From Streptomyces showdoensis (GTDB taxonomy: Bacteria; Actinomycetota; Actinomycetes; Streptomycetales; Streptomycetaceae): a stretch of DNA of 64,000 nt. Where the stretch lies: NCBI RefSeq assembly GCF_039535475.1, contig NZ_BAAAXG010000002.1, forward strand, positions 124,001-188,000, written 5' to 3'. The notes under the pieces were generated by a model. That model was not told where the DNA came from and did not search any database. It worked only from the letters and a program-made list of their open reading frames with translations. Positions 5,762 to 64,000 of this stretch are shown one piece after another. Both the position numbers and the translations under genes were made by a program. The number at the start of each line of letters is the position of its first letter. Within the stretch, counting starts at the first letter, position 1.

Positions 5762-6760
5762 TCAGCGGACCGGGGAACCGGCGGTCTCCGGGGAACAGGT
5801 GAGCACCGTCTTCGCGATCGTCGCGCGGGCCTCCAGTGCCGTGTGGGCGTCCGCCGCCCCGGCGAGGGGGAAGCGCCGGCCGACGCGGACGTCCAGGGCG
5901 CCGTCACGGGCCAGTCGCAGGACGGCCGTGCCGCGGCGCAGCAGCTCGGACCGGGCCGTGATGTGGTGCTCCAGATTGGGGCGGGTGACGAACAGGGACC
6001 CGGCGGCGTTGAGGCGTTGCAGGTCGAACGGGGGGACCGGGCCGCCGGACTGGCCGTAGACCGCCAGGACCCCGCGGGGGCGCAGCGCGGCGAGGCTCTC
6101 GTCGAAGGTCGGGCCGCCGATGCCGTCGAAGACCGCGGCGGCGCCGAGGCCGTCGGTGTGCTTCCGGACCGCGGCGAGCAGGGCGCCCGGCCGGTAGTCG
6201 ACGACCTCGGCGGCGCCCGCCTCCCGTGCCGCCTCCGCCTTGGCCTCGGTCGAGGCGGTGCCGATCACCGTGCCGCCGCGCATCCGCACGAGCTGGGTGA
6301 GCAGCATGCCGACGCCGCCCGCGGCCGCGTGGACGACGACGGTGTCGCCCGGCCGGACCGGGTGGGTGTCGTGGCACAGGTAGTGCGCGGTCATGCCCTG
6401 GAGGAGGACGGCCGCCGCCGTCTCCGGGTCCAGTCCGGCCGGCACCGGCACCAGGCGGTCGGCGCTCAGCAGGGCGTACTCCGCGTAGGAGCCGGGCAGG
6501 TTGGCCCAGGCGACCACGTCGCCGACGGCGACCTCGGTCACCCCGGGCCCGAGCTCGACGACCGTGCCGGCGCCCTCCTGGCCGGGGACGTACGGCAGTT
6601 CCCTCGGGTAGCGGCCGGACCGGAGGTAGACGTCGATGAAGTTGACCCCGGCGGCGGCGAGGCGCACCAGCGCCTCGCCCGGTCCCGGTGACGGGCGGGG
6701 CACGTCGACGAGCTCGAGGACCTCGGGCCCGCCGGCCCGGCTGACGCGGATGGCTTTCAT
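5762..6760 (-). CDS. NADPH:quinone oxidoreductase (zinc-independent MDR family)
   Basis: A 332-residue medium-chain dehydrogenase/reductase. The N-terminus MKAIRVSRAGGPEVLELVDV is typical of quinone reductases. VNFIDVYLRSGRYP and PGQEGAGTVVELGPGV follow, and the NADPH-binding loop is HAAAGGVGMLL. The structural zinc cysteines are absent. An in-frame ATG at 6823, with GAGGAAG upstream and overlapping the sulfotransferase stop, would give 353 residues and translational coupling. It ends the minus-strand MFS-sulfotransferase operon, so a redox tailoring role is possible but unproven. Confidence 0.85.
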   Translation of the reverse strand: MKAIRVSRAGGPEVLELVDVPRPSPGPGEALVRLAAAGVNFIDVYLRSGRYPRELPYVPGQEGAGTVVELGPGVTEVAVGDVVAWANLPGSYAEYALLSADRLVPVPAGLDPETAAAVLLQGMTAHYLCHDTHPVRPGDTVVVHAAAGGVGMLLTQLVRMRGGTVIGTASTEAKAEAAREAGAAEVVDYRPGALLAAVRKHTDGLGAAAVFDGIGGPTFDESLAALRPRGVLAVYGQSGGPVPPFDLQRLNAAGSLFVTRPNLEHHITARSELLRRGTAVLRLARDGALDVRVGRRFPLAGAADAHTALEARATIAKTVLTCSPETAGSPVR

Positions 6761-6809
6761 GGAGGGGATCGTACGGAGGCCGGACCGGGCGGGACCGGCG
6801 TTCGGGCGG

Positions 6810-7907
6810 TCAGGCGCGGTCATAGCCGGCTTCCTCGGCGAGGTCGGCGACGAGCGGCAGGACCTGGCGGATCTCCTGCTCGTGGCGGCGCCACTTGTCG
6901 GGGTCGGGGACGGTCTGGGTCATCACGACGGGGAGGTCGCGGCGGCCCCAGGCGTCGGCGAAGGGCAGGTCCACGGCCTCGGCCACGGCCTCCATCGTGG
7001 CCACCGGGTCGGCCTGCACGTCCTCGTAGCGGACCAGGACGGAGTTGCCGGTGGGGGCGAGGGCCCGGGCGGCGTCCAGGACGGCCCGGTTGTGGGCCAG
7101 CCAGTTGCGGGCGCAGACCTCGGCCAGCGGCAGGTCCACCCAGTCCCGCCAGCCGGGCGGCAGGCTGAGGTTCCACCACTCCTTGCCCCAGGGGAAGACG
7201 TCCGAGTACCCCTTGATGCGCAGCGGCTCGGGCACCGGGTAGGAGAAGAACATCCGCGGGTTGAGCCAGGCGTCCATGAGCGAGCCGATGCTGGTGCGCG
7301 GGTCGCGGACGACGAAGACGTACTTGGCGTCGGGGTAGAGGGCCTGCAGGAACGGGATCCGGAAGCAGGACTGGATGCTCTTCTCCACCAGCCGGATGCC
7401 GTCGGCGAGTTCGGCCTCGGTGGGGCGCGGGCCGCGCGGCGGGAAGCAGAACGGCGTGATCTCGTCGAGCTCGCCGCCGTCCCGCGTGGTGGGCGGGCCC
7501 TCGGGGAGCTCGCCGGGGAAGCGCTGCCGGAGGGCCTTGAGCGGCACGTCGTAGTAGTACGGCTGCGGGCCCTGGGCGCTGATGAAGTCGAGGTAGTCGA
7601 GCTTGTCGTCGACGGACCACTCCGCGCCGGGCCTGCGTGCGGCGGCGAGCAGGTCGGCGTCGAGCCGGGCCGCCACCTCGGGGGTCGCGTCGGAGGCGTC
7701 CAGGGCGTTGGAGTGCCAGCCGCGCCGGCTGGGGTGCAGTCCGTCGCGCTCCCAGATCGGCTTGCCCTCGCGGCCGATGCTCCAGACGTGCTCGCTGCGT
7801 TCGATGAGGCTGCGGACCAGACTGGTGCCGGAACGGGGGTGGCCGACGATGAAGATGGGCTGCTTGAGCATGGCTGAGGTCGCTTTCGTGAGGAGGCGGG
7901 TACTCAT
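6810..7907 (-). CDS. PAPS-dependent sulfotransferase
   Basis: A 365-residue cytosolic sulfotransferase. The 5'-phosphosulfate loop is IFIVGHPRSGTSLVRSL (residues ~18-34) and the 3'-phosphate-binding element is KYVFVVRDPRTSIGS. It transfers sulfate from PAPS to a hydroxyl or amine acceptor. The ATG at 7907 overlaps the stop of the MFS gene (ATGA), implying coupling; a later ATG at 7871 (MLKQPIF) is possible. PAPS is presumably made by cysCDN at 57.5-60.4 kb. Pairing with an exporter suggests sulfation of the peptide late in assembly. The acceptor is unknown. Confidence 0.88.
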   Translation of the reverse strand: MSTRLLTKATSAMLKQPIFIVGHPRSGTSLVRSLIERSEHVWSIGREGKPIWERDGLHPSRRGWHSNALDASDATPEVAARLDADLLAAARRPGAEWSVDDKLDYLDFISAQGPQPYYYDVPLKALRQRFPGELPEGPPTTRDGGELDEITPFCFPPRGPRPTEAELADGIRLVEKSIQSCFRIPFLQALYPDAKYVFVVRDPRTSIGSLMDAWLNPRMFFSYPVPEPLRIKGYSDVFPWGKEWWNLSLPPGWRDWVDLPLAEVCARNWLAHNRAVLDAARALAPTGNSVLVRYEDVQADPVATMEAVAEAVDLPFADAWGRRDLPVVMTQTVPDPDKWRRHEQEIRQVLPLVADLAEEAGYDRA

Positions 7908-9208
7908 GCGGGCCAGCGGGCGGACCGGACGTGCCGGTTGGCGAGGCCGGCCGCGGTGATCAGGGCCTGGGCTCCGGCGATCAGCACGATGGCGCCGGTG
8001 ACGCCGAGGAACTGCAGGGCCAGGCCGCCGACCAGCGAGCCGAGCGGGGATCCGGCGCCGATGAGGGTGATGGTCGCGGCGATGGCGCGGCCCCGGCGGT
8101 GGTCCGGCGTCTGCCGGAAGATCATGATGTCGACGAGGATCTTCAGGGCCGGCAGCCCGAGCGCCGCCAGGGTGAGCATCGCGAAGACCCAGACCGGTCC
8201 GAACGGAAGGGCCAGCAGGGCCACCGCGAGGGTGGTGAGCGTGGACGCGGAGAGCAGCAGGCCGCCGGGGCTGAGCAGCCGGTTGAGCCGGGGCACCAGC
8301 GCCGAGCCGACGAGCATGCCGACGGCGGTGCCGGACAGCGCCAGACCGATCGTGCCGGCGGAGTGGTCCTGCTCGCGCAGGGTCACCATCACCATGAGGA
8401 TCGCGGCGGTGATGCTGAAGTAGAAGATGCTGATGAGGAGGAGGGCCGAGCGCAGCAGGCGGTCGGTGAGGAGTTCGACCAGGCCGGAGAAGGCCGTGGT
8501 CAGGGGGCTCAGCGCGCTCTTCGGCCCGGCGCGCTCCGGCCCGACCGGCCCGTCAGGACCGTCCGGTTCGTCGGGCGCGGTCGCTTCCGTGGTCTTCGGT
8601 ACGCGGACGAGCAGGGCGCAGACGAACGAGATCACGAAGCCGGCGATCGCCGCGAGGAACGGGAAGGTGCGGGAGACCAGGTAGAGCGCGCCGCCGAGGG
8701 GCGGTCCGGCGAGGGCGGCCGCGCCGCTGCGCGCCTCGTCCTGGCTGAGTGCGGCGGTGAGTTGATGGTCCGGCACCACGGCCCGGATCAGCAGCATCCG
8801 GGCGGGTGCCCCGAAGGCCGTACCGGCGCCCAGCACGACCGCGGCGAGGATCAGAAGTCCGAAGTTCGCCCGGCCGGCCATGAGACTGATCACGATGAAC
8901 GCGAGAGTGAGGGCGCGGACCGCTTCGGAGATCAGCAGGATGCGGCGCCGGTCCCACCGGTCGACCACCGCGCCGGCCGGCAGGCCGACGAGGAGGGCGG
9001 TACCGATCTGGGCGAAGCCGAACAGGCCGGCGAGTGCGGGGGAGCCGGTCAGGGACATGATCAGGAGGGGGTAGGCGACTTCCACGGTTTCGAGGCCGAG
9101 GTTGGCCGATGCGGCCCCGATCCAGAGAATTTGGAAGCGCCGGTTTCGGCGCAGGGGTGTCGGCGTGGGAAGAGTCGCGCTATCACTTAGATGTAAGCGT
9201 TCACTCAT
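7904..9208 (-). CDS. MFS transporter (enterobactin-exporter/macrolide-efflux-like)
   Basis: A 434-residue protein with about 12 membrane helices. The cytoplasmic loop PAGAVVDRWDRRRILLISEAVRA is the MFS motif A (G-x-x-x-D-R-x-x-R-R). A hydrophilic Pro/Gly-rich stretch lies between helices 6 and 7. It probably exports the peptide product, or a toxic precursor, and is the first gene of the operon with the sulfotransferase. A GTTCAC-N6-GTGAAC inverted repeat spans its start codon, and a divergent ArsR-like regulator lies 57 nt away. Confidence 0.88.
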   Translation of the reverse strand: MSERLHLSDSATLPTPTPLRRNRRFQILWIGAASANLGLETVEVAYPLLIMSLTGSPALAGLFGFAQIGTALLVGLPAGAVVDRWDRRRILLISEAVRALTLAFIVISLMAGRANFGLLILAAVVLGAGTAFGAPARMLLIRAVVPDHQLTAALSQDEARSGAAALAGPPLGGALYLVSRTFPFLAAIAGFVISFVCALLVRVPKTTEATAPDEPDGPDGPVGPERAGPKSALSPLTTAFSGLVELLTDRLLRSALLLISIFYFSITAAILMVMVTLREQDHSAGTIGLALSGTAVGMLVGSALVPRLNRLLSPGGLLLSASTLTTLAVALLALPFGPVWVFAMLTLAALGLPALKILVDIMIFRQTPDHRRGRAIAATITLIGAGSPLGSLVGGLALQFLGVTGAIVLIAGAQALITAAGLANRHVRSARWPA

Positions 9209-9265: not shown

Positions 9266-9907
9266 ATGGCCGACGATGCCGACGCGGTGACGGTCGTCCG
9301 CGAGGTGGACGACGTGGAGACGCTGAAGGCCCTGTCCGACCCGCTGAGGCTGGCGATCCTGCGCACGATGATGAGCGACGTACGGGCCTCGCACCGGGTC
9401 AAGGACATCGCCCGGCTGCTGGACCAGCCGCCCACCCGGCTCTACCGGCACATCAAGGTGCTGGAGGCCGCGGGCCTGATCAAGGTGGCGCAGACCCGGA
9501 TGGTCTCCGGGATCCAGGAGAGCCAGTACCAGGTGGCGCAGTTCGCCCTGCGGCTGAGCCGCGACCTGCTGGCCGCGCCGGGCAACGCGGGCGACCTGGC
9601 CGACGCGTTCGCGGCCACGCTCAACGACTTCCGCGACCGGCTCGTACGGGACATCATCAGCGGCCGCTTCCAGCCGGAGCCGGACCCGGAGGCCGCCGAG
9701 CAGCCGGATCCGCTCGGCCCGATGGTCGTGGCGCTCGACCGGCGGCTGACGCCGGAGCGCGCCGTCGAGTTCCGGTCCCGGCTGACCGCGCTGATGGACG
9801 AGTTCAACCGGCCCGACGACGAGGAGAAGGCCGATGTGCCGGTCGAGTTCCTGCTGATGTTCTGGGCGCCCAAGGAGCCGGCCGAGGAGTCCGGGGGGAA
9901 GTCCTAG
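9266..9907 (+). CDS. ArsR-type winged-helix transcriptional regulator
   Basis: A 213-residue protein. The HTH region is LKALSDPLRLAILRTMM, followed by VKDIARLLDQPPTRLYRHIKVLEAAGLI, as in HTH_20/ArsR proteins. No metal-binding cysteine motif is seen, so the ligand is probably an organic compound. It probably represses the divergent MFS-sulfotransferase operon through the 9199-9216 repeat. I chose ATG 9266, with GGAG 9 nt upstream. A perfect 19-bp hairpin follows the gene. Confidence 0.8.
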   Translation: MADDADAVTVVREVDDVETLKALSDPLRLAILRTMMSDVRASHRVKDIARLLDQPPTRLYRHIKVLEAAGLIKVAQTRMVSGIQESQYQVAQFALRLSRDLLAAPGNAGDLADAFAATLNDFRDRLVRDIISGRFQPEPDPEAAEQPDPLGPMVVALDRRLTPERAVEFRSRLTALMDEFNRPDDEEKADVPVEFLLMFWAPKEPAEESGGKS

Positions 9908-10036: not shown

Positions 10037-11068
10037 TCACTTGGTCGCGATGAAGAGGCGGCCGCCGGGGAAGCGGTGCGGCACGCACTCGGCCTGCTCG
10101 AAGCCGGCCTGCCGGAAGCGGGCCAGCCAGTCCTCCTCCGGGGGCAGCGTCACGTTCATGAACCCGGCGTGCAGGTAGGTGAACAGCGCGCTGAACCGGC
10201 GCTCGCGCTCCGCCGACGCGTACGGCACCGCGTCGGTGATCGCCATGATGCCGCCCGGGCGCAGCGCCTCCCGGCACTGCCGCAGCACCCGGTCGAAGAC
10301 GTCGCCCTCCAGCACGATGTCGTGGAAGACGAACCCGGCGTGGATGACGTCGGCGCCGGCCACCGGGCCGGGGTCGTCGGCGATGGACTGGATCGGCCGC
10401 TCCACCACCGTCAGGCGCTCGCCGACCCCCGCGTCCCGAGCCGCGCGGGCCGCCTCCTGACACGCGCCGGCACTCATGTCCAGGGCCACGCCGGTGCTCT
10501 CCGGCAGCCGGCCGAGCAGGTCGATCAGCAGGCCGGCGGCACCGGCACCGAGGTCGACGATGTGCTTCGGCCGCGCGGCCAGGATCGCCTCGGTCGCGGC
10601 CGGGTAGAAGCCCTGGCTGCCGATCCACCGGGAACTGACCGCCACCTCGCGCCCGTTGCGCCGGAACTGCGCTCCGGCGGCGGCCGGGTCGCGCAGGAAC
10701 GCGGCGGGGTTCTGGACGTACGGCTGGTTGGCCCGCAGCGACCAGGTGAGGTAGCCGGAGTCGTGGATCCGGTCGGCGAAGTCCTCCGCGACCCGGAACT
10801 CCTTGACACCGGTCGGCACCACCAGCGCCGCGGCGACCAGGGTGGCCAGGAAGCCGTCCATGCCCTCCTCCGGCACGTCCGCGGCCACGGCCAGCTCGGC
10901 CGAGGTCACCGGCTCACCGCGCTCCAGCAGCGGGACGATGCCCAGCCGGTCGGCCATTTCGAGCAGCGTGGCGACGGCGGCGAGATCGGCTGCGGTCTCC
11001 CGGGGGCTGATGCTTGACATCGCGTTCTCCCACTCCAATTCGACGGTCATCTCGGGATCTACGGTCAT
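10037..11068 (-). CDS. SAM-dependent methyltransferase with N-terminal winged helix
   Basis: A 343-residue class I methyltransferase. An N-terminal dimerisation/winged-helix part ([18 protein letters not shown]) is followed by SAM motif [18 protein letters not shown] at ~residue 175 and a post-II region [13 protein letters not shown]. The end, [19 protein letters not shown], resembles ketoacid C-methyltransferases such as MppJ, but also small-molecule O-methyltransferases, so substrate and atom are uncertain. The ATG at 11068 overlaps the NRPS1 stop (ATGA). Downstream ATGs at 11050 and 11020 are alternatives; the latter has GGGAG upstream. Tight coupling to NRPS1 makes a precursor or peptide methylation role likely. 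Confidence 0.75.
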
Positions 11069-14000
11069 CGGGGGTCCGGCTGGGCGCCGGAGGGTTCGGT
11101 GCGCCGGCGGAGCTTCGGCCGGCTGCGGCCGGCGGACCGGCCGAGGCGTTCGGCGAGCGCCGCCACCGTCGGGGACTCGAACAGGGCGGCCACGCTGAGG
11201 CTCGCGTCGAAGCGGGTGCGCACCCGGTTGAGCAGGCGGGTGGCGAGCAGCGAATGGCCGCCGAGGTCGAAGAAGTTGTCGTGCACGCCGACCCGTTCGG
11301 TCTTCAGGACCTCGGCGAACATCGCGCACAGCGCGGTCTCCCGCTCGTCCCGCGGCGCCACGTACTCCATGGCGGACGTGCCCGGGCCGGGGGCCGGCAG
11401 CGCCTTCCGGTCGACCTTGCCGTTGCCGGTCAGCGGCAGCCGGTCCAGCGTGACGAACACGCTCGGCACCATGTAGTCCGGCAGCGTCCGGGCGGCGTGC
11501 TCCCGGACGGCGGCCACGTCCACGTCCGCCGGCACGAGATAGCCGACCAGCCGCTCGCCGTCCCCGGTCACCGTCGCGTGGGCCACGTCCGGGTGGCCGG
11601 TCAGGGCCGCCTCGACCTCGGCCGGTTCGATCCGGAACCCGCGGACCTTCAGCTGCGCGTCGACCCGGCCCTCGAACTCCAGCACCCCGTCGGTCCGGTA
11701 GCGGGCGAGGTCGCCGGTGCGGTACATCCGCCCGCCGGCCGGGCCGTACGGGTCGGCGACGAAGCGGGCCGCGGTCACGTCCGGCTGGTGCGCGTAGCCG
11801 CGGGCCAGGCCGGTCCCGGTCACGTACACCTCTCCGGGCACCCCGGGGGCCACCGGCCGCAGCCGCTCGTCGAGCAGGTACAGCCGGGTGTGGTCCATCG
11901 CCCGGCCGATCGGCACCGTACGCGCGGGCACCGTGGCGATCGGGTACCAGGAGGAGATGACGGTGGTCTCCGTGGTGCCCCAGGCGGCGGCGACCGCGGT
12001 GTCCGGAGCGTCGGCCACCAGATCCGCGACCGAGGCGGGCGACACCACGTCGCCGGCCATCCACACGAGGTCCAGCGCGGCCAGCGCCGGCCGGGCCTCC
12101 GCCGCCATCAGGTTGAACAGCGCGGAGGTGAAGACCGCGGTGGTGGCCTTGCCCTCGACGATGGTGCGGGCCAGCACCTCGGTGTCCAGGTCTCCCTCGG
12201 GAGCGATCACCACCCGTCCGCCGGTCAGCAGCGGCAGCCAGATCTCGTACGTGGACGGGTCGAACGAGGTCGGCGAGTGCATCAGCGCGTCCGCCGGCCG
12301 CAGTTCCGCCCAGGCGCGGTCGGTGACGAACTCGGCGACGCTGCGGTGCGAGACGCCGACCGCCTTGGGCGTGCCCGTCGAGCCGCTGGTGAACATCGTG
12401 TACGCGGTGAGCTCGGGGTGGGTGGTGACGGCGGGTCCGTGCTCCTCGGCGCCCGGGGAGGGCGCCACGACCGTGACCCCGGTCAGCGCGGTGGGCGTGT
12501 CGGTGACGAGCAGCGACGCCCGCATGTGGTCGACCATCCGCTGCTGCCGGGCGAGCGGCGCGGACGCGGGCAGCGGCAGGTAGCCGCCGCCGGCCTTGAC
12601 GACCGCGAGGACGGTCACGAGGTAGTCGATGCCGCGCGGCTGACGCACCGCCACCGGGTCGTCGGGCGCGCAGCCCGCCGCGACCAGGGCGTGCGCCAGG
12701 TGGTTGGCGCGCCGGTCCAGGTCCCGGTAGCTGATCGACCGGTCGCCCTCGACCGCGGCGACCGCGTCCGGGGTGGCGGCGGCCTGCCGGGCGAAGAGCA
12801 CGGCGAGGTCCTCGTCGACGACCGGCCGCCCGGTGTCCGCCCGGTCCGACAGCGCGGCCCGGCGTTCGGCGTCGGAGAGCAGGTCGATCCGCCCGATCGG
12901 CAGGTCCGGATCGGCGACGGCCGCGCTCAGGACCCGTGTCAGCCGGTCCATCAGAGCGGTCACGGTCTCCCGGTCGAACAGATCGGTGCGGTAGCGCACC
13001 TCGCCGGTGATGCCCTCGGGCGCCCGGCCCTCCCCGTGCCGCTCGGCGAAGCTCAGGCTGAGGTCGAAGTCGACCGGGCCGACCCGGATCGCGTCGAGCG
13101 CGCCCCCGGTCGGCGCCGGCGACACCTCGACGCCCGGCAGGGCGAAGGAGGCCTCGGCGTTGTTCTGCAGGACCAGCATGGTCTGGAAGAGCGGGTGCCG
13201 GCTCAGCGTGCGGGCCGGGTTGAGCGCCGTGACGATCCGGTCGAACGGCAGCTCCTGGTGGGCGTAGGCCGCCAGGTCCAGCTCCCGCACCCGGGTCAGC
13301 AGTTCGCGGAAGCTCGGGTCCCCGCCGGTGTCGGTGCGCAGCACCAGGCTGTTCACGAAGCAGCCGACCAGCTGGTCGAGGCTGTCGTCGCTGCGGCCGG
13401 CGACCGCGGTGCCGATCGGGATGTCGGTGCCCGCCCCGAGCCGGGTGTAGAGCGTCGCGAGCGCGGCGTGCAGCACCATGAACAGCGTGGTGTGGGTGCG
13501 CCGGGCCAGAGCCAGCAGTCCGGCGTGCAGCGGTGCGGGCAGCGTGACCGGGAGCAGGGCGCCCCGCAGGTCCGAGGAGTCCGGCCGGGGCCGGTCGTAG
13601 GGGAGGGCCAGCTCCTGCGGGAGCGCGGCGAGCCGCTCGGACCAGTACCCGGAGAGGCGTTCGCCGTCCGGTCCTTCGAGCAGGGACCGCTGCCACAGGG
13701 TGTAGTCGGCGTACTGGACCGGCAGCGGGCGCCAGACCGGCGCGTCGCCGCGGACCCGGGCGGCGTAGGCCTGGGCGAGGTCGTGCGTCAGCGGGGCCTG
13801 GGACCAGCCGTCGCCGGCGATGTGGTGCAGGAGCAGCAGCAGGGTGTGCCGGTCCGGGCCGGTGGTGAACAGGTGCAGCCGCAGCGGCAGTTCGGTGGTC
13901 AGGTCGAAACGGTGGCCGGCCGCGGCCGCCAGCTCGCGGTCCAGGTCGGCCGGGTCCACCCGGAGCGCCCGCAGCACCTCGTCGGGGTCGGCCTCCTTCA

Positions 14001-54118: not shown

Positions 54119-55152
54119 GCGCAGCACCCCCTCCCGGCGGAGCCGGCAAGCAGGTCCTCATCCACGACGCGTCCCTGCGCGACGGCCACCACGCCGTCCG
54201 CCACCAGCTGGGCCGCGACCAACTGCGGGCCTACGCGCGGGCGGCGGACACCGCCGGCGTCCCGGTGGTCGAGGTGGGGCACGGCAACGGCCTCGGCGCC
54301 TCCTCCCTCCAGGTCGGGCAGGCCCGGCTCGACGACGACGAGATGCTGTCGATCGTGCGGGAGGCCCTGCAGAACAGCACGATGGCCGTCTTCATGCTGC
54401 CGGGCTGGGGCACCACCGCCGACCTGGAACGGGCCATCGCCCACCAGGTGGACGTGGTCCGGATCGGCACCCACTGCACCGAGGGGGACCTCGCCGAACG
54501 GCACCTGGGCTTCCTCCGCGAGCAGGGTGTCCAGGCCCAGGCCGTCCTGCTGATGAGCCACATGGCGAGCCCCGACCGGCTGGCCCGGGAATGCGCCCGG
54601 CTGGTCGAGTTCGGCGCCACCGCCGTCGGCATCATGGACTCCTCCGGCCACTACCTTCCGGCCGACGTCACCGAACGCGTCGGCGCCATGCGCGAAGCCG
54701 TCGACGTGCCGGTCATGTTCCACGCCCACAACAACCTCGGGATGGCGGTCGCGAACTCGGTCGCCGCCGTGGAGGCCGGGGCGGACATCCTGGACGCCTG
54801 CGCCCGGGGCTTCGGCGCCGGAGCCGGGAACACCCAGCTCGAAGTCCTGGTGCCGGTGCTGGAACGGATGGGCTTCCCGACCGGGATCGACCTCTACGGT
54901 CTGCTGGACGCGGCCGACCTCGCCGAGCGCGAGCTCATGCCGGCCCCGCCCACCATCGACTCGGTGAGCGTCGTCAGCGGCCTGGCCGGAGTGTTCTCCG
55001 GATTCAAGACCCGGGTCCTGGACGTCTCCCGGCGCGAGGGCGTCGATCCGCGCGACGTCTTCTTCGAACTGGGCAGGAGACAGGCCGTGGCGGGCCAGGA
55101 GGACCTCATCATCGAGGTGGCCCTCGCCCTGAAGGCGGCCCGTGGTGCGTGA
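54115..55152 (+). CDS. 4-Hydroxy-2-oxovalerate aldolase (DmpG family)
   Basis: A 345-residue class II aldolase. [16 protein letters not shown] (catalytic Arg-Asp-Gly), [33 protein letters not shown], metal ligands in [16 protein letters not shown], and [17 protein letters not shown] with the DmpG communication domain at the C-terminus. It joins pyruvate or 2-oxobutyrate to an aldehyde, channelled from the dehydrogenase. The start overlaps the dehydrogenase stop (ATGA), as expected for this stable enzyme pair. Confidence 0.93.
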
Positions 55153-55207: not shown

Positions 55208-55438
55208 GTGTACGAGGTACTCAAGGACATCCTGGTCAGCGAACTGCAGGTGCGCGAGGAGGACGTCCTGCCCACGGCCACCCGCGAAGAGGTCGGGCTG
55301 GACTCCCTGGCGGTGCTGGAACTCGCCACCGCGCTCCACGAGCGGCTCGGCATCGAGGTCCAGGACTACGAACTGCTCGACGCCGGCACCCTCGCCGACG
55401 TGGCCCGCCTGATCGCGGAACGGCAGCCGGGAGGCTGA
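55208..55438 (+). CDS. Acyl carrier protein
   Basis: A 76-residue ACP. VGLDSLAVLELATALHERLG holds the phosphopantetheine Ser (DSL). I chose GTG 55208, with GAGGGA ~9 nt upstream; GTG 55142 would add a basic, non-domain N-terminus. Likely carrier for the acyl group loaded by the LnmK-like enzyme two genes downstream, delivering an acyl thioester to the aldehyde dehydrogenase. Confidence 0.88.
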   Translation: MYEVLKDILVSELQVREEDVLPTATREEVGLDSLAVLELATALHERLGIEVQDYELLDAGTLADVARLIAERQPGG

Positions 55439-55506: not shown

Positions 55507-56592
55507 ATGTCTTACCCACGCCTGCGCGCGGTCCTGGAGACCGTCGCCGCCTACAAGCCGTCCGACGGCCTCCACGGCCCGGCCGAGCGCCCCCGCCCGC
55601 TGTCGGCGAACGAGTCGCCGCACACCCCCCTCCCCGGCATCGTCGAGGCGATCGCCCGGGCCGGCGCCACGGTGAACCGCTACCCGGACCCCGGCTGCGG
55701 AGCGCTGGTCCGGGCCATCGCCCGGGCCCACGGGATCGCCGAGGACCGGGTCGCCGTCGGCGCCGGCTCCGTGGCCCTCCTGCAGACCCTGTTCCAGTCC
55801 GTCGCCGACCCCGGCGCCGAAGCCGTCTACGCCTGGCCGTCGTTCGAGGTCTACCCCACGCTCGCCGCCCTGGCCGGTGTGACCGCCGTGCCGGTGCCGC
55901 TGGCCGACGAGGCCCACGACCTGCCGGCCATGGCCGAGCGGATCACCCCGCGGACCCGGCTCGTGATCGTCTGCGACCCGAACAACCCGACCGGCACGGT
56001 CGTCGACCCGGACGAGCTCCGGAAGTTCGTCGCGTCCGTGCCCCCGACCTGCCTGGTCGCCGTGGACGAGGCCTACCACGAGTACGTCCGCGGCCCGGCG
56101 GCCCCCGGTGCCCTGGCGCTGTGCGCCGACCACCCCAACCTGGTCGTGCTGCGCACCTTCTCCAAGGCCTACGGACTGGCCGGCCTGCGCACCGGATACC
56201 TGGTGGGCCACCCCCACGTCGTCGAACGGCTCCGCAAGGCGAGCCCGCCTTACGCCGTGAGCACCGTGGCCCAGGAGGCGGCCGTCGCGGCCCTCGGACT
56301 CGAGGAGCGGCTGCTGCGCCGCGTCGACGAGACGGTCGCGGAACGCACCCGGGTACGGGACGCCCTGGTGGGGGCCGGCTGGGAGGTCCCGGAGAGCCAG
56401 GCCAACTTCGTCTGGCTGCGGCTGGGCCCGGACGCCGCCGAGTTCGGCGCGTGGTGCGCCGAGAGGGGCGTCGCGGTACGGGCGTTCGCCGGCGTGGGCG
56501 TGCGCGTGTCGATCGGCTCCGCCGAGGACGACGACCGGTTCCTCGCCGTGGCGGACGCCTGGCGCACCTCGAGAAAGGCGGCGGAGGCATGA
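55507..56592 (+). CDS. HisC-like aminotransferase
   Basis: A 361-residue PLP enzyme of the histidinol-phosphate aminotransferase family. LSANESPHTPLPGIVEAI, NRYPDPGCGALVRAIA, VGAGSVALLQTLF, VCDPNNPTGTVVDPDEL, VDEAYHEYV, Schiff-base Lys in RTFSKAYGLAGLRTGYLVG. NikK of nikkomycin, also HisC-like, aminates the gamma-hydroxy-2-ketoacid made by the SanM/SanN-type pair. By analogy this one should convert the aldol product into a gamma-hydroxy-alpha-amino acid. A second primary-metabolism HisC cannot be excluded but the operon makes it unlikely. Confidence 0.9.
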   Translation: MSYPRLRAVLETVAAYKPSDGLHGPAERPRPLSANESPHTPLPGIVEAIARAGATVNRYPDPGCGALVRAIARAHGIAEDRVAVGAGSVALLQTLFQSVADPGAEAVYAWPSFEVYPTLAALAGVTAVPVPLADEAHDLPAMAERITPRTRLVIVCDPNNPTGTVVDPDELRKFVASVPPTCLVAVDEAYHEYVRGPAAPGALALCADHPNLVVLRTFSKAYGLAGLRTGYLVGHPHVVERLRKASPPYAVSTVAQEAAVAALGLEERLLRRVDETVAERTRVRDALVGAGWEVPESQANFVWLRLGPDAAEFGAWCAERGVAVRAFAGVGVRVSIGSAEDDDRFLAVADAWRTSRKAAEA

Positions 56593-57557
56593 CCACGTTC
56601 CACCCGGCCCCCGAGGCCCTGCTGCCGGCCGCGGCCGCCGGGGTCTCCCGGCACGTCGTCGTCGCGCCGGGCATGTGCAGCGGCGGCTCCCTGGTGTTCG
56701 GCCGCATCGGCGACTGGACCTGGGAGGTGGTCGCCGAGTCGTGCCGGATCAACGTGCACGCGGCCAGGACCGCCGCGGGGGACCCCGCCTACCTGTCCTT
56801 CTACTACTTCCACGTGCGCGGCGGCGACGTCGTCCACCCGCACGGGCTCACCTTCGGCGACGAACTCCGGGTCGATTCCCGGTCCTTCCGCTTCGGCAGC
56901 CAGTCGGTCATCACCCTGCACCGGCTGGCCCCGGCCGGCCTGGAGCTGCCGGCCGGACCGCTGGACCCGGCGGAGGTGTACGAGAACCCGCACCCGCACT
57001 GCCTCTACGCCGAGAACTTCAACCGCTGGATCGCCCGCACCACCGCGGGCAGCAACCGGGACCTCGCCCAGGTGACCCCGCCGGACTTCGCGTACCAGGA
57101 GCTGGCACCGCTGCCGAACGCCTACTCCCCGCGCTCCCTCGTGGGCAGGGCCCGGGCCACCGGAAGCTTCCACCCCGAGGGCCCGCCCGGATTCCACGAG
57201 GCGGGGCAGCCCGTCACCTTCCCGTACACCCTGGACGTCGTGCGCGACCTCAACGGCGCCGGACTCATGTACTTCGCCTCGTACTTCGCCGTCTTCGACA
57301 CGATGCTGCTGCGGCTGTGGCGCTCGCTGGGGCGCACGGACGAGCAGTTCCTGCGGCGCAAGGTGACCGACCAGAAGATCGGCTACTTCGGCAACGCCGA
57401 CCCCGGCACGGGCTTCACGGTCACGGTCCGCAGGTGGCGGAGCACCGCGTCCCCGGACGTCGAGGTGGCCGACATGGCCCTGCGCGACAGCGCGACCGGC
57501 CGGCTGATCGCCGTCACCGCCATCGAGACCGAGACCGAGGCGGCGGGTGCGTCATGA
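56589..57557 (+). CDS. LnmK-like (Pnap_2097-type) acyltransferase/decarboxylase
   Basis: A 322-residue double hot-dog protein. VVAPGMCSGGSLVFGRIGDW at the N-terminus, YLSFYYFHVRGGDVVHP with Tyr residues where LnmK has its catalytic Tyr, NPHPHCLYAENFNRWI, and FASYFAVFDTMLLRLWRSLG. LnmK turns methylmalonyl-CoA into propionyl-S-ACP. Overlaps the aminotransferase stop (ATGA). Paired with the ACP it would supply a short acyl chain. The assignment rests on overall pattern, not on a full alignment. Confidence 0.7.
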   Translation: MTTFHPAPEALLPAAAAGVSRHVVVAPGMCSGGSLVFGRIGDWTWEVVAESCRINVHAARTAAGDPAYLSFYYFHVRGGDVVHPHGLTFGDELRVDSRSFRFGSQSVITLHRLAPAGLELPAGPLDPAEVYENPHPHCLYAENFNRWIARTTAGSNRDLAQVTPPDFAYQELAPLPNAYSPRSLVGRARATGSFHPEGPPGFHEAGQPVTFPYTLDVVRDLNGAGLMYFASYFAVFDTMLLRLWRSLGRTDEQFLRRKVTDQKIGYFGNADPGTGFTVTVRRWRSTASPDVEVADMALRDSATGRLIAVTAIETETEAAGAS

Positions 57558-58099
57558 GCGGGGACACCACCGGCGCGACGGTATGGCTGACCGGCCTGCC
57601 CAGCGCCGGCAAGACCACGATCGCGCGCAGCGCGGCCGGCGCCCTGCGGTCCGCCGGACGCCGGGCGCACATCCTGGACGGCGACGAGCTGCGCGCCCAC
57701 CTGACCGCCGACCTCGGCTTCTCCCGCGAGGACCGGGACGCGAACGTGCGACGCGTCGGCTACGTCGCGGAGCTGCTCGCCTCCCACGGCGTCACCGTGC
57801 TGGTCCCGGTCATCGCCCCGTACGCGGACGCCCGCGCCGCGGTGCGCGCGCGGCACGAGGCCGCCGGCCTCCGGTACGTCGAAGTGCACGTGGCGACCCC
57901 GGTCGAGGTGTGCGCCGGGCGGGACGTGAAGGGCCTCTACGCCCGCCAGGCGAGGGGCGAGCTGACCGGACTGACCGGGGTGGACGACCCGTACGAGCCG
58001 CCGGCCGCACCGGACCTGAGGATCCCGGCGCACGAGCAGAGCCGGGCGGAGTCGGCGGAGGCGCTGGTCGCACTGCTGCGGGAGAAGGGGCTGGCATGA
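57554..58099 (+). CDS. cysC: Adenylylsulfate (APS) kinase
   Basis: A 181-residue kinase that makes PAPS from APS. P-loop VWLTGLPSAGKTTIARSAAG, LDGDELRAHLTADLGFSRED, RDANVRRVGYVAELLASHG, and the DVKGLYARQARGELTGLTGV lid followed by DDPYEPP. Overlaps the LnmK-like stop (ATGA). Together with cysDN and the sulfotransferase at 6.8-7.9 kb it indicates dedicated PAPS supply. Confidence 0.96.
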   Translation: MSGDTTGATVWLTGLPSAGKTTIARSAAGALRSAGRRAHILDGDELRAHLTADLGFSREDRDANVRRVGYVAELLASHGVTVLVPVIAPYADARAAVRARHEAAGLRYVEVHVATPVEVCAGRDVKGLYARQARGELTGLTGVDDPYEPPAAPDLRIPAHEQSRAESAEALVALLREKGLA

Positions 58100-59076
58100 C
58101 GACTGCGACGACTGCGACGACGGCGACCGCTCCGCCGACCGCGACGCCGACGACGGCCGAGACCGGGAGCACCGACGACCCGGGCGCGCGGACCCACGCG
58201 GACGTGCTGGAGGCGGAGGCGGTGCACATCATCCGCGAGGTGGCGGGCGAGTTCGAGCGGCCGGTGATCCTGTTCTCCGGCGGCAAGGACTCCGTCGTCC
58301 TGCTGCACCTCGCGCTGAAGGCCTTCGCGCCCGCCCCCGTGCCCTTCGCCCTGCTCCACGTGGACACCGGACACAACTTCCCGGAGGTCCTGGCGTACCG
58401 GGACCGTGTGGTGGCGGCACACGGGCTGCGCCTCCACGTGGCCTCCGTACAGGACTACCTCGACCGCGGTGTGCTCAAGGAACGCGCCGACGGGACCCGC
58501 AACCCGCTGCAGACGCTGCCCCTGACGGACCGGATCCGCTCGGAGGGCTTCGACGCCGTCTTCGGCGGCGCCCGGCGCGACGAGGAGAAGGCCCGGGCCA
58601 AGGAACGGGTGTTCAGCCTCCGGGACCGGTTCTCGCAGTGGGACCCGCGCCGCCAGCGCCCTGAGCTCTGGCAGCTCTACAACGGCCGGCACGCACCCGG
58701 CGAGCACGTACGGGTCTTCCCGCTGTCCGACTGGACCGAGCTCGACGTGTGGGAGTACGTCGCCCGCGAGGGCATCGAACTCCCGGAGATCTACTTCGCC
58801 CACGAGCGCGAGGTCTTCCGGCGCTCCGGGATGTGGCTCCCGGTCGGCGACTGGGGCGGCCCCGAGGAGGGCGAGCGGGTCGAGAAGCGGCGCGTCCGCT
58901 ACCGCACCGTCGGGGACATGTCCTGCACCGGCGCCGTCGACTCCGAGGCGGTGACCCTGGACCAGGTGATCGCGGAGATCTCCGCGTCCCGGCTGTCCGA
59001 GCGGGGCGCGACCCGCGCCGACGACAAGCTCTCCGAGGCCTCCATGGAGGACCGCAAACGCGAGGGGTACTTCTGA
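58096..59076 (+). CDS. cysD: Sulfate adenylyltransferase subunit 2
   Basis: A 326-residue PAPS-reductase-like ATP sulfurylase subunit. PP-loop VILFSGGKDSVVLLHLALKA, HVDTGHNFPEVLAYRD, FGGARRDEEKARAKERVFS and NGRHAPGEHVRVFPLSDWTE are characteristic. It has an unusual Thr/Ala repeat at the N-terminus (TTATTATTAT, then APPTATPTTAE). Overlaps cysC by ATGA. Activates sulfate to APS with CysN. Confidence 0.96.
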   Translation: MTTATTATTATAPPTATPTTAETGSTDDPGARTHADVLEAEAVHIIREVAGEFERPVILFSGGKDSVVLLHLALKAFAPAPVPFALLHVDTGHNFPEVLAYRDRVVAAHGLRLHVASVQDYLDRGVLKERADGTRNPLQTLPLTDRIRSEGFDAVFGGARRDEEKARAKERVFSLRDRFSQWDPRRQRPELWQLYNGRHAPGEHVRVFPLSDWTELDVWEYVAREGIELPEIYFAHEREVFRRSGMWLPVGDWGGPEEGERVEKRRVRYRTVGDMSCTGAVDSEAVTLDQVIAEISASRLSERGATRADDKLSEASMEDRKREGYF

Positions 59077-59078
59077 GC

Positions 59079-60416
59079 ATGACCAGGACCACGGAACTCC
59101 CCACCGGCGGCCTGCTGCGGTTCGCCACCGCCGGCTCCGTCGACGACGGCAAGTCCACCCTGGTGGGCCGGCTCCTGCACGACTCCAAGTCGGTCCTGGC
59201 CGACCAGCTGGAGGCCGTGGAGCGCGCCTCGGCCGGCCGCGGCCAGGAGGCGCCCGACCTCGCCCTGCTCACCGACGGCCTGCGCGCCGAACGGGAACAG
59301 GGCATCACGATCGACGTCGCCTACCGCTACTTCGCCACCCCGAGGCGGCGGTTCATCCTGGCCGACACCCCCGGGCACGTGCAGTACACCCGCAACATGG
59401 TCACCGGTGCCTCCACCGCCGACCTGACGGTGATCCTCGTCGACGCCCGCCACGGCGTCGTCGAGCAGACCCGTCGGCACGCCGCCATCGCCGCCCTCCT
59501 GCGCGTCCCGCAGGTCGTGCTCGCGGTCAACAAGATGGACCTGGTCGGCTACCGCGAGCCGGTCTTCGCCACGATCGTCGCCGAGTTCACCGCGTACGCG
59601 GCCGAGCTCGGCATCCCCGCGGTCACCGCGATCCCCATTTCGGCCCTCGCCGGGGACAACGTGGTGGAGCCCTCGGCGGTCATGGACTGGTACGGCGGCT
59701 CGACCGTCCTGGAACACCTGGAGACCGTCCCGGTCGGCCAGGGCCCCGCGCACCGCCGGGCCCGGCTGCCCGTCCAGTACGTCATCCGCCCCCGGACCGC
59801 CGCGCACCCCGACTACCGCGGCTACGCCGGCCAGGTCGCGGCCGGCGCCTTCCGCGTGGGCGAGCCGGTCACGGTCCTGCCGTCCGGCCGGACGACCAGG
59901 ATCTCCGCCATCGACCTGCTCGGCCGCCGGGTCGCCGTCGCCGGGGCCGGGCAGTCGGTGACGGTCCTGCTGGAGGACGACATCGACGTCTCCCGGGGCG
60001 ACCTCATCGTGCCGACGGCCGACGCCCCGCCGACCACCCAGGAGATCGAGGCCACCGTCTGCCACGTCGCCGACGAGGCCCTGACCGTCGGCCACCGGGT
60101 GCTGCTCAAGCACGGCACCCGCACGGTCAAGGCCATCGTCGAGGACATCCCCTCCCGGCTCACCCTCGACGACCTGACCCTGCACCCGCACTCCGGCCGG
60201 CTGGTGGCCAACGACATCGGCCGCGTCAGGATCCGCACCGCCGAACCGCTGCCCGTCGACTCCTACGCCGACTCGCGCCGCACCGGCTCGTTCATCCTGA
60301 TCGACCCCGGCGACGGCACCACCCTGACCGCGGGCATGGTCGGCGCGTCCTTCGCCGACCCCGGACCGGCCGACGGCGCCGCCGACCCCGCCGAGGACGC
60401 GGGCTGGGACTTCTGA
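59079..60416 (+). CDS. cysN: Sulfate adenylyltransferase subunit 1 (GTPase)
   Basis: A 445-residue EF-Tu-like GTPase. P-loop ATAGSVDDGKSTLVGRLLHD, switch II DTPGHVQYTRNMVTGAS, NKMDL, then beta-barrel domains. No CysC domain is fused at the C-terminus, matching the separate cysC. It couples GTP hydrolysis to APS formation by CysD. Two nt after the cysD stop. A convergent hairpin follows. Confidence 0.96.
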   Translation: MTRTTELPTGGLLRFATAGSVDDGKSTLVGRLLHDSKSVLADQLEAVERASAGRGQEAPDLALLTDGLRAEREQGITIDVAYRYFATPRRRFILADTPGHVQYTRNMVTGASTADLTVILVDARHGVVEQTRRHAAIAALLRVPQVVLAVNKMDLVGYREPVFATIVAEFTAYAAELGIPAVTAIPISALAGDNVVEPSAVMDWYGGSTVLEHLETVPVGQGPAHRRARLPVQYVIRPRTAAHPDYRGYAGQVAAGAFRVGEPVTVLPSGRTTRISAIDLLGRRVAVAGAGQSVTVLLEDDIDVSRGDLIVPTADAPPTTQEIEATVCHVADEALTVGHRVLLKHGTRTVKAIVEDIPSRLTLDDLTLHPHSGRLVANDIGRVRIRTAEPLPVDSYADSRRTGSFILIDPGDGTTLTAGMVGASFADPGPADGAADPAEDAGWDF

Positions 60417-60465: not shown

Positions 60466-63400
60466 TCAGCTCCCGGCACGCCCTTCCGCCGCCCGCTCGG
60501 ACAGCACCGCCCCGATCCGGGCGAGCGGAACGGGATCCAGCATCTCGTAGTGGCCGCAGGCGAGGTCGACGGCGGTGAGGCGCCCGCCGCCGTACGCCCG
60601 CCAGGCCTCCGGATCCGCGACCGGAACGCCGGCCCCCTCGGTACCCTCCGCGGCGGCCCGGAAGTGCAGCACGTCGACCCCGCGCGTCCGCACCGGTGCG
60701 GTCCGCAGGGCGTCCACCGCCGACCGCACCGCGAGCCGCGCCCCCGCCACCGCCCGCTCCCCGAGCAGCGCGATCTGCTCCGGCGGCGTCCCGTCGGCGG
60801 CGAACCCGGCCGACCCGGCCACGTGCCGGTGCGTCTCCTCCCAGCCCGGCAGACCCTCCTCGGGAGCCGGATACGAGTCGAGCAGGGCCACGAACTCCAC
60901 GGCGTGCCCCGACTCCACCAGCTCCGCGGCCACCCCGTAGGCGAGGGTGCCGCCGACCGACCAGCCGAGCAGCCGGTACGGCCCCTCCGGCCGCAGCTCC
61001 CGGATCCGCCGCGCGTACTCCCGCACCAGCTCCTCCGGCTTGCGCGCACCGCCCTCCGGATCGGCGAGGCTCGGCGCCTGCAGCCCGTACAGCGGCACGT
61101 CCGGGTCCAGGTGCGGCAGCAGCCGGGCGTACGGCCAGGCGAGACCGCTCGCCGCGTGCACCGCGAACAGCGGCCGCAGCCGCCCGCCGGTCCGCAGCGG
61201 CAGCAGCACGTCCAGGCCGGAACCGCCGCCCTCGCCGTCCAGCCGCCGGGCCAGGGCCGCCGGGGTCGGCGCCTCGAACAGGGCCCGCACCGACAGCTCG
61301 GTGCCCAGGACCGCCCGCACCCGGCTCACCAGCTGGGTCGCCAGCAGCGAATGCCCGCCCAGGTCGAAGAAGCCGTCGTCCGGACCGACCCGGTCCACCC
61401 CGAGCACCTCGGCGAACAGCGCGCACAGCGGCTCCTCGTGGGCGCGGGCCGCCCCGCGCCGGGCGGCGGTGCGGTACGTGGGGGCCGGCAGCGCCGACCG
61501 GTCCAGCTTGCCGTTCGGCATCAGCGGCAGCCGCTCCAGCGACACCACCGCCGACGGCACCATGTGGTCCGGCAGCACGTCACGGGCGAAGCGCCGCAGC
61601 TCCGCACCGTCGAGCGGCGTCCCGGACGCACCCGGCACGGCGTACGCGACCAGCCGGCGGTCGCCCGGCCGGTCCTCCCGCACCACCGCCACGGCCTGCG
61701 CCACGTCCTCGTGCCGCAGCAGGGCGGCCGCCACGTCACCGAGCTCGATCCGGAAACCGCGCACCTTCACCTGGCCGTCCAGCCGGCCCAGGTACTCCAG
61801 CTGCCCGTCGGCCCGCCACCGCACCCGGTCGCCCGTGCGGTACATGCGGCCGCCGGGCTCGCCGAACGGGCAGGCCACGAAGCGCTCCGAGGTGAGCGCC
61901 GGCCGGTTCAGATAGCCGCGGGTGACACCCGCCCCGGCGATGTACAGCTCTCCCGGCCGCCCCACCGGGACCGGCCGCAGCCACGGATCCAGCACGTACA
62001 CCCGGGCGTTGGGCACCGGCCGGCCGATCGGCGGATCGCCGTCGGCGTCCTCGGGCCCGCCGCGCCACCAGGTCGAGTAGGTGGTCGCCTCGGTGGGCCC
62101 GTAGATGTTGGTCACGGCGCAGCCCGGCACCCGCTCCCGCAGCTCCCGCAGCAGGCCGTGCGGCACCGCCTCCCCGCCGAGCACCACGTGCGGTGCCGAC
62201 ACCGCGAAGGCCCCGCCGGCCAGCAGGCTCGCCACCGCCGAGGGGACGCCGCTGACCAGGCTCCCCTCCCAGCCGTCCCGGTCGAGCAGCGCGAACAGGT
62301 CGTCGACCAGTTCCAGACGCCCGCCGAGGGCCAGCGTCGCGACGATCTCGAAGACCGACACGTCGAAGCTGAGCGAGGTGGACGCCAGCACCCGCGCCAT
62401 GCCCTCGGCGCCGAAGTGGTCCTCCACGGTCGCCACGAAGTTGACGGCGTTCGCGTGCTCGACGACCACGCCCTTGGGCACGCCGGTGGTGCCCGAGGTG
62501 TAGATCACGTACGCCGGGTGCCGGGGGAGCAGCGGCTCCGGCCGGTCCGCGTCCACGAGGTCCGCGTCCCCCTGCTCCACGACGCGCCGCACCACGGCCG
62601 GATCGTCCAGGACGAGCGCGGCCGTCCCCTCCGGCAGCACGTCCCGGGTCGCCCCGGTGACCACCGCCAGCCGCGGCCGGGCGTCGCCGAGCATCCGCGC
62701 CACCCGGTCGGCCGGGTAGCGCACGTCGACCGGCACGTAGGCGGCCCCGGCCTTGAGCACGGCCAGCAGGGCGACCACCAGGTCCGCCGTCCTCGGCAGC
62801 GCCAGGGCCACCAGGGTGCCCGGCCCCGCGCCCTCGGCGAGCAGCACGCGCGCCAGCCGGTTGGCCCGGCGGCCGAGCTCCCCGTAGCCGAGCTCCCGCC
62901 CCCGGTGGGAGACGGCGGGCCGGTCCGGGATCCCGGCGGACCGCGCCTCGATCAGGGCGGGCAGGGTGACCGGCGCCACCGGGCGGGCGGTGGCGTTCCA
63001 CTCCTCCAGGACCCGCCGGCGCTCGTCGTCCGAGAGGGCCGGCAGGCCGGCGACGGGCTGGTGCGGGTCGTCGGCGATCGCCTCCAGGATCCGGACCAGC
63101 CGCTCGGCGATCCCCTCCACCGTCGCCCGCCCGAGCAGATCGGGCCGGAAGTCGAGCCGAACGCCCAGTTCCTCGGCCGGGGTGCAGATCAGGGAGAGCG
63201 GATAGTGGGTGGCGTCGAACCCCGTGACGTCGACCAGCAGGGCCGCGCCGAGCCGGCGCCGGCCCGAGCCCATCGGGTAGTTGTCGAACACGGCCGTGGT
63301 GTCGAACAGGGCCCCGAAGCCCGCCTGCTGCTGGATCTCCGTCAGCCCGACGTGGTGGTGCTCCATCAGGTCGAGCTGCTCGTCCTGGACCCGTTCGAGG

Positions 63401-64000
63401 AGATCGAGCAGGGTGTCCCGGGGGTCCGTCCGCACCCGCGCCGGAACGGTGTTGATGAGCAGGCCGACCATCGACTCGACGCCGTCCACGTCGGCGGCCC
63501 GGCCCGACACCGTCATCCCGAACAGCACGTCGCCCTGCCCGGTCAGCTGCCGCAGCACCAGTCCCCAGGCCACCTGCATCACCGTGCCGAGGGTGACCCC
63601 CGCCTCCCGCGCCCGCTCCGTCAGCGCCGCGGTGTGCCCGGCCGGCAGCGCGCGCACCACCCGCTCCGGGACCACCGTGCCCGCGCCCCGCGCCCGGGGC
63701 GCCACCAGCGTCGGCCCCTCGATCCCGGACAGCGCCTCCGCCCAGGCCTCCAGGGACCACTCCGGATCCACCTCGCCGAGCCACTCCAGATAGGAGCCGT
63801 ACGAGGGGGCGGCCGGCAGCACGCGCTCCGCCGCCGCCCCCGCCCCGGCGTCGTACAGCCGGAACAGCTCGTCCAGCAGGATCGAGGTGGACCAGCCGTC
63901 CAGGATGATGTGGTGGTTCGTCAGCGCGAACCGCCACCGGGTGCCGCCCAGCCTGATCAGCAGGAAGCGGACCAGCGGCGGCCGCGCGGTGTCGAAGCGC
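60466..64000 (-). CDS. NRPS, terminal module C-A-T-TE (5' part outside window)
   Basis: About 1178 residues are visible; the gene continues beyond the right edge. The C domain carries [19 protein letters not shown] and [13 protein letters not shown], a form typical of DCL domains that follow an epimerase, so an upstream D-residue is likely. Then an A domain ([13 protein letters not shown]; pocket I read as DVFSVGITYK, unassigned), a T domain ([14 protein letters not shown]) and a TE ([15 protein letters not shown], His in CGHYEML). It ends a peptide chain of its own, separate from NRPS2, or contributes a second part of the molecule. Convergent with cysN. Confidence 0.93.

Follow-up and report, generated by a model that had tools for sequence, protein, structure and literature searches.

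A co-inherited 73-kb gene cluster with two nonribosomal peptide synthetase lines and sulfation genes in Streptomyces showdoensis

Results

In Streptomyces showdoensis (assembly GCF_039535475.1), a biosynthetic gene cluster with two nonribosomal peptide synthetase (NRPS) lines begins within a 64,000-nucleotide stretch, here called the window, which covers positions 124,001 to 188,000 of contig 2 (NZ_BAAAXG010000002.1) in the 8.5-Mb genome; positions below are counted from the first letter of the window. Genes were called with a codon-usage script, and most were scanned against Pfam and some against NCBIfam (Table 1). The cluster spans 5762 to about 78,726 (73 kb) and thus runs beyond the window end, where nrpsC2, a luciferase-like oxidoreductase gene (LLM) and nrpsC1 come after nrpsD on its strand and MFS2 comes last. 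A sequence-only reading of the window had proposed a hybrid cluster for a single sulfated, N-/O-methylated peptide, and its left edge coincides with that of the conserved unit. Every element that it named was found at gene level by Pfam or NCBIfam, with some adjustments. Its three NRPS genes are present, but the third is cut by the window and two more lie outside. Its three methyltransferase activities become four when the second in-module methyltransferase (MT) domain, outside the window, is counted, and the stand-alone enzyme is a C-methylase by family. Both its right-hand and its NeuB gene sets exist, the former also including an FAA-fold hydratase and the latter a short-chain dehydrogenase (SDR), an RmlD-like reductase and a HAD phosphatase.

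Table 1. Genes of the cluster, with positions relative to the window (A, adenylation; C, condensation; PCP, peptidyl carrier protein; TE, thioesterase; E, epimerization; OMT, O-methyltransferase; ACP, acyl carrier protein; MFS, major facilitator superfamily; APS, adenosine 5′-phosphosulfate; PEP, phosphoenolpyruvate; HIUase, hydroxyisourate hydrolase; HPPD, 4-hydroxyphenylpyruvate dioxygenase)
Feature	Position	Strand	Basis
Zinc-type alcohol dehydrogenase (adh), left edge of conserved unit	5762..6760	-	Pfam PF08240/PF00107; first conserved gene in S. zaomyceticus and TSRI0281
Sulfotransferase (ST, Sulfotransfer_3)	6810..7907	-	Pfam 1.3e-23
MFS exporter 1	7904..9085	-	Pfam
ArsR-type HTH regulator	9266..9907	+	Pfam
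SgvM-type alpha-keto acid beta-C-methyltransferase	10037..11068	-	PDB 8ftr, E 4.4e-95
nrpsA, line 1: A-MT-PCP / C-A-PCP / C-A-PCP	11065..20391	-	Pfam, motif map
nrpsB, line 1: C-A-PCP / C-A-PCP-TE	20403..27632	+	Pfam, codes
Free-standing PCP	27923..28201	-	Pfam 3.1e-18
Cytochrome P450	28225..29406	-	Pfam; heme motif FGWGPHVCVG
Free-standing A domain fused to OMT (A-OMT)	29413..32085	-	Pfam AMP-binding + Methyltransf_2
HmaS, 4-hydroxymandelate synthase type	32300..33319	+	PDB 7yvv 8e-79 (named HPPD), 2r5v (PCZA361.1) 3.9e-76
Hmo, FMN-dependent hydroxymandelate oxidase type	33316..34425	+	Pfam FMN_dh
HpgT-type aminotransferase	34464..35750	+	Pfam Aminotran_1_2; place in trio
NeuB-like PEP aldol synthase with SAF domain	35756..36823	+	Pfam; aligns to SpsE and SiaC
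SDR of NeuB set	36807..37616	+	Pfam
Transketolase-like enzyme (tkt)	37643..39568	+	Pfam; PDB transketolases
RraA-like aldolase	39585..40259	+	Pfam; PDB 3noj
RmlD-like reductase	40256..41149	+	Pfam; NCBIfam rmlD over cut-off
HAD phosphatase	41149..41796	+	Pfam
L-lysine 6-transaminase family (LAT)	41798..43081	+	TIGR03251 575.6 bits, cut-off 520.8
MbtH-like protein	43194..43409	+	Pfam
LuxR-type large ATPase regulator	43556..46414	+	Pfam
AfsR/SARP-type regulator (BTAD, NB-ARC, TPR)	46611..49662	+	Pfam; two frames here
Transthyretin/HIUase-fold protein 1	49954..50283	+	Pfam
Transthyretin/HIUase-fold protein 2	50630..50992	+	Pfam; PDB match
HTH regulator	51045..52085	+	Pfam HTH only
FAA-fold hydratase (faa)	52378..53172	+	Pfam; PDB 2eb4, 1sv6
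Acylating aldehyde dehydrogenase (aldDH)	53225..54118	+	NCBIfam TIGR03215 over cut-off
DmpG-type 4-hydroxy-2-oxoacid aldolase	54115..55152	+	NCBIfam TIGR03217 over cut-off; PDB 1nvm
ACP	55208..55438	+	Pfam
HisC-type aminotransferase	55507..56592	+	Pfam/NCBIfam
LnmK bifunctional acyltransferase/decarboxylase	56589..57557	+	TIGR04098 282 bits (cut-off 100); PDB 4hzo 1.8e-89
CysC, APS kinase	57554..58099	+	Pfam
CysD, sulfate adenylyltransferase subunit 2	58096..59076	+	Pfam
CysN	59079..60416	+	Pfam
nrpsD, line 2: C-A-PCP-TE	60466..64374 (window part to 64000)	-	Pfam, motif map
nrpsC2, line 2: C-A-PCP / C-A-PCP-E	64371-72215, outside window	-	
Luciferase-like oxidoreductase (LLM)	72254-73303, outside window	-	
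nrpsC1, line 2: A-MT-PCP	~73469-77189, outside window	-	
MFS2, second MFS gene	77446-78726, outside window		

Co-inheritance was assessed in regions of S. zaomyceticus JCM 4864 and Streptomyces sp. TSRI0281 that were compared in full, using 41 protein queries that span adh to MFS2 and include two pieces of a single gene. All 41 queries matched in both strains with order and orientation kept, some aligning in part (A-OMT 55%, btad 67%). In S. hydrogenans, 34 of the 41 were found on two contigs (15 and 19), the seven leftmost lying outside the region compared. Beyond the cluster, the flanks of S. zaomyceticus (~24 kb left, 20 kb right) gave seven weak matches (29-54%) to 35 flank genes, none in the corresponding position, and about 19.7 kb beyond MFS2 in S. 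hydrogenans gave no flank-gene match; the TSRI0281 flanks compared amounted to ~4.4 and 0.2 kb. The locus is a genuine co-inherited unit with sharp edges. The sequence-only reading had named separate inheritance of its blocks as an outcome that would count against it, and the blocks are instead conserved together in two other species. Protein clustering places 85 sequences with the sulfotransferase at 92% and 82 in nine LnmK clusters at 85-90%, counts that fit joint inheritance without being a strain-by-strain proof of it. Chance adjacency of independent blocks is a very improbable explanation: sub-blocks do recur alone elsewhere, and line 1 occurs without line 2 in a region of Acrocarpospora (see below), but the ordered matches for all 41 queries in two species and the unrelated flanks of S. 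zaomyceticus argue against it.

The NRPS genes form two lines. Line 1 (nrpsA and nrpsB) has five modules and ends in a thioesterase; line 2 (nrpsC1, nrpsC2 and nrpsD) has four, mostly beyond the window, and ends in a thioesterase of its own. Specificity codes of the A domains were taken from motif alignments. Those of nrpsA are DAIFMGGIA, DAHWLGLTC and DPYVWAAVI; the first A domain of nrpsB is closest to an Acrocarpospora domain with the code DALHLGLMC, which we take to be similar to codes for 4-hydroxyphenylglycine (Hpg), and the last has the code DFWNIGMVH, presumably that for Thr. In line 2, the code of nrpsC1 is presumably for Phe and the third code presumably for Gly, and the epimerization motif HLVVDGVSW stands at the end of nrpsC2. 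Judging from their position within A domains, the two in-module MT domains would act as N-methylases. The A-MT and PCP parts of nrpsC1 lie in different frames in the window strain and in one frame in three relatives, and the SARP regulator gene, a single frame in S. zaomyceticus and TSRI0281, is likewise in two frames here; this reflects either a faulty assembly or a genuine loss. The luciferase-like enzyme was tried as a marker of line 2 and discarded, since 156 of 391 genomes matched it at 1e-60. Further NRPS loci of the source genome lie on contig 13 (~99-121 kb) and on contigs 26 and 29.

A cluster with line 1 was found in Acrocarpospora catenulata (genome G397, contig C127, 52.7-98 kb; 80 kb examined), where it is uncharacterised. 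It shares the sulfotransferase (72% identity), MFS exporter (59%), stand-alone methyltransferase (66%), an NRPS pair with five A domains (55-59%), MbtH (73%), the three Hpg genes (55-69%), the NeuB set (55-77%) and LAT (66%). Its second A code is identical to that of line 1, and the first, third and fourth are similar. Between 40 and 120 kb of this contig, the span to which the nrpsC/D search was confined, there was no nrpsC/D-like best match and no LLM or CysC/D/N match; LnmK is absent from the genome at E 1e-20, and the single CysC match lies on another contig. In place of line 2, LnmK and the genes for 3′-phosphoadenosine-5′-phosphosulfate (PAPS), the Acrocarpospora cluster has genes for DAHP synthase, MR_MLE, PhzF and others. 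From this comparison, line 1 looks like an older core, and the LnmK cassette, line 2 and the PAPS genes look like later additions.

These observations bear on whether one product or two should be expected. The hybrid cluster of the sequence-only reading held up as a co-inherited locus that combines genes for sulfation and for Hpg with two more routes to amino acids, but its single assembly line is not supported, because there are two lines, two thioesterases and two MFS genes, and because Acrocarpospora has line 1 and the sulfotransferase but, across the 80 kb examined, lacks line 2. It is conceivable that the two lines are joined into one nine-residue sulfated peptide, for example by esterification or amidation of the line-2 peptide to line 1. 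The persistence of all 41 queries together in two other species would agree with this, as would the location of the PAPS genes in the line-2 half and of the only sulfotransferase found in the line-1 half. Set against the paired thioesterases and MFS genes, the two methylating first modules, neither of which has a starter C domain, and the Acrocarpospora region with line 1 only, we regard a joined product as rather unlikely.

HmaS, Hmo and HpgT are encoded together in one run (32300-35750). Although one close solved match of HmaS is named HPPD, the HmaS assignment was preferred because of the gene context. No prephenate dehydrogenase was seen among the cluster genes scanned. The trio is held in common with glycopeptide clusters, to one of whose enzymes (2r5v) HmaS is near. 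Glycopeptides are made by seven modules, whereas the present cluster has five plus four, with one P450 gene among the genes scanned.

The sulfotransferase carries a P-loop, GHPRSGTS, read by eye as a 5′-PSB motif, and is a candidate PAPS-dependent enzyme. It has no close solved relative (best PDB match 6.6e-4), and in a phylum sample it was found at 1e-80 in one of 396 genomes, its own. The CysC/CysD/CysN set is complete, and a search of the source genome found another CysD on contig 28, to which that of the cluster, as the second copy, is 81% identical. We assign both sulfation and the NeuB set to line 1, because Acrocarpospora has the two with line 1 and because at least six of 29 sulfotransferase homologs share a longest-contig size with an RraA homolog among the 120 of 230 RraA matches listed, one contig being 22.7 kb long. 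Sulfation of the final product is predicted from these genes, and all substrates are likewise predictions. Sulfation might instead be a transient activation, producing a leaving group or an N-sulfonate on a strained ring, so that the end product would bear no ordinary O-sulfate. Precedents are the aziridine-type and monobactam pathways, which have PAPS genes of their own, and a C-terminal Thr next to the thioesterase is compatible with ring formation. We consider this unlikely, since no gene specific to such a pathway was noticed, in a survey that did not search for them one by one, and a literature search for the gene combination was empty. A candidate aziridine or azabicycle pathway combining transketolase, PAPS genes and sulfotransferase was likewise dropped, no supporting papers having been found.

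The NeuB-like protein falls below the cut-off for sialic acid synthase (TIGR03569, 283.9 vs. 399.65 bits) and is not a canonical NeuB. A scan of a collection of 84,980 species returned 17 loci, three in Streptomyces at 88-93% and the others at 62-71%; neuB, sdr, tkt and rraA are consecutive in 15 of them (all except L023 and L024). Ten loci (L015-L022, L026, L027) have the set without NRPS matches. By family grouping, with identities taken from the members in L021, all ten carry a gene of D-arabinono-lactone-oxidase type between rmlD and had, and nine carry a class IV aminotransferase. Six (L015-L019, L027) have a gene whose product combines an ATP-grasp domain with an L-amino acid ligase C-terminal domain, and we favor an amino acid as the end product because these ligase genes adjoin the set. 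LAT occurs in four of the 17 loci, namely the three close Streptomyces and Acrocarpospora. The NRPS-free loci may be unexplored peptide-ligase clusters, and in L020-L022 genes of glutamate-mutase and desaturase type adjoin the NeuB set (identified in L021, same families in the others). No paper on the neuB-sdr-tkt-rraA set was found in open-licence PubMed Central (PMC). Tentatively, and with well under even confidence, we propose that neuB-sdr-tkt-rraA-rmlD-had is an undescribed portable pathway that joins PEP to an aldehyde derived from a sugar and so builds a hydroxylated amino acid, which is then sulfated by the cluster. Aldol addition, reduction and dephosphorylation would come first, and LAT or a class IV aminotransferase would then aminate one end or both, giving, for example, dihydroxylysine or dihydroxypipecolate.

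To the right, a hydratase, an acylating aldehyde dehydrogenase, a DmpG aldolase and an aminotransferase are encoded in one run (52378-56592). In cyclomarin biosynthesis, the residue 2-amino-3,5-dimethylhex-4-enoate (ADH) is made by a hydratase, dehydrogenase, aldolase, C-methylase and aminotransferase, and in leinamycin biosynthesis LnmK serves to form a polyketide branch. The cluster protein belongs to the same family as the leinamycin enzyme, matching solved LnmK at 1.8e-89, and here its gene sits with those for DmpG and HisC. According to two papers, the ADH residue is built from isobutyraldehyde and pyruvate (PMC8068612) and traced to valine and pyruvate (PMC8401383). The likeness, drawn from this literature, lies in the homologation of an aldehyde with pyruvate to supply an unsaturated amino acid to an NRPS; the aldehyde comes from Val in cyclomarin and would come from methylmalonyl-CoA via LnmK and ACP here. 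With LnmK as the entry step of a cyclomarin-like route, propionaldehyde and 2-aminohex-4-enoate are the predicted intermediate and product.

LnmK was present in 14 of 394 genomes of a family sample at 1e-20 and in 5 of 391 of an order sample at 1e-100, the source genome counted in both; the only close LnmK in the order sample (G421, 88%) occupies the same contig place as in S. zaomyceticus. Within the genus, G239 has all six cassette genes at 70-84% together with the methyltransferase beside NRPS genes; G204 has the cassette at 61-84% (faa 35%) beside NRPS genes, with no methyltransferase seen; and G366 has aldDH, dmpG, acp and lnmK at 64-83%, with faa (46%) and the methyltransferase (49%) on the opposite strand. 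In the M. rosaria family (Micromonosporaceae), relatives of the methyltransferase at 1e-50 were found in 11 of 300 genomes. Ten of these 11 loci carry faa, aldDH and dmpG, and five additionally carry acp and lnmK; among these five, hisC is present in four and NRPS matches within 20 kb in all. An LnmK-free cassette (faa-MT-dmpG-aldDH, dmpG ~52%) lies beside NRPS genes in loci L121-L125 of this family and resembles the cyclomarin type. The right-hand route is therefore not new in kind: its logic is of cyclomarin type, and its LnmK form recurs elsewhere. The A code that may select the LnmK residue, DAYFWGVTF, compares with DSYYWGVVF in L116, which is only a hint, as L117-L120 have DAFCVGGTF and G239 has others.

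The best solved match of the stand-alone methyltransferase is 8ftr, a chain of 339 residues. For SgvM, H244 and H296 are given as metal ligands and 4-methyl-2-oxovalerate as substrate (PMC10502145). We take 8ftr to be SgvM, of viridogrisein biosynthesis, because its chain carries His at both positions; 8FTR is not mentioned in the text consulted. Both His residues are kept in all 18 methyltransferase sequences compared, including that of the cluster. By family, to which its assignment is owed, the enzyme is an alpha-keto acid beta-C-methyltransferase, neither an N- nor an O-methylase. In an unrooted tree it falls outside the clade of cassette methyltransferases (support 89). The Acrocarpospora enzyme joins the cassette side with support of 71 only, and its grouping with the cluster enzyme is not shown. 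Unlike the cyclomarin type, no C-methyltransferase of the cassette clade adjoins the LnmK cassette, and the cluster enzyme is encoded ~41 kb away. In locus L115, an SgvM-like gene without the aldolase cassette adjoins mbtH, a P450, a free PCP and an A domain, a grouping that echoes the P450-PCP-A-OMT group of the cluster.

Among the remaining genes, both small transthyretin/HIUase-fold proteins are retained in three other strains at 71-94%. Where the solved homolog has the first His of the HIUase site (SVHI), protein 2 has Arg and protein 1, by eye, Ser, so the pair are probably not hydroxyisourate hydrolases. The HTH regulator at 51045 is presumably ParB/StrR-like, a label given by eye.

Discussion

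We lean, by a modest degree, towards reading the locus as one co-inherited 73-kb cluster whose two NRPS lines make two peptides, a sulfated one from line 1 and a shorter one from line 2 with a residue supplied through LnmK. The line-1 peptide would begin with an N-methylated residue and end in Thr, and it would contain residues of Hpg type, probably along with one supplied by the NeuB-SDR-transketolase-RraA-RmlD-HAD-LAT set; it would be sulfated by the cluster sulfotransferase with PAPS from the extra CysC/D/N. The line-2 peptide would begin with N-methyl-Phe and have a D-residue at position 3. It would probably also take up the cassette product, if the cassette runs in the direction assumed: LnmK would give propionyl-ACP and then propionaldehyde, and aldol addition to pyruvate, dehydration and transamination would yield 2-aminohex-4-enoate, 3-methylated if the SgvM-type enzyme also acts. 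The two peptides could be separate co-made products or be joined later.

Several points weigh against this reading. To our knowledge, most A codes of the cluster match no established code, and none is a textbook Hpg code; the residue assignments are therefore guesses, and the products proposed are read from genes. The Gly-type third code of line 2 fits badly with the adjacent E domain. The fifth Acrocarpospora code, DAFLWGGVI, differs from that of line 1 and is presumably not for Thr. The PAPS genes stand on the side of line 2, whereas the sulfotransferase is of line-1 type. Line 2 may be silent in this strain, or the assembly wrong, since nrpsC1 and the SARP regulator are each in two frames. 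The LnmK cassette of G366 had neither an NRPS match nor hisC in the 80 kb examined. Finally, the methyltransferase may not serve the LnmK cassette, because the tree places the only stand-alone enzyme of this kind found in the cluster apart from those of the cassettes. Its membership seemed strong at first, as faa, aldDH and dmpG accompany nearly all its Micromonosporaceae relatives, but the tree disagrees.

No described match to the cluster was found in the open-licence PMC literature, MIBiG lying outside the search, and the locus looks like an uncharacterised cluster of antibiotic type rather than a new kind of system. If the reading of two lines and two peptides is correct, named strains that can be cultured would offer a family of sulfated Hpg peptides together with a two-line cluster. 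Two portable cassettes for amino acids would be defined as well, one LnmK-fed and of hexenoate type, and the other the NeuB-transketolase-RraA set, which occurs in many actinobacteria.

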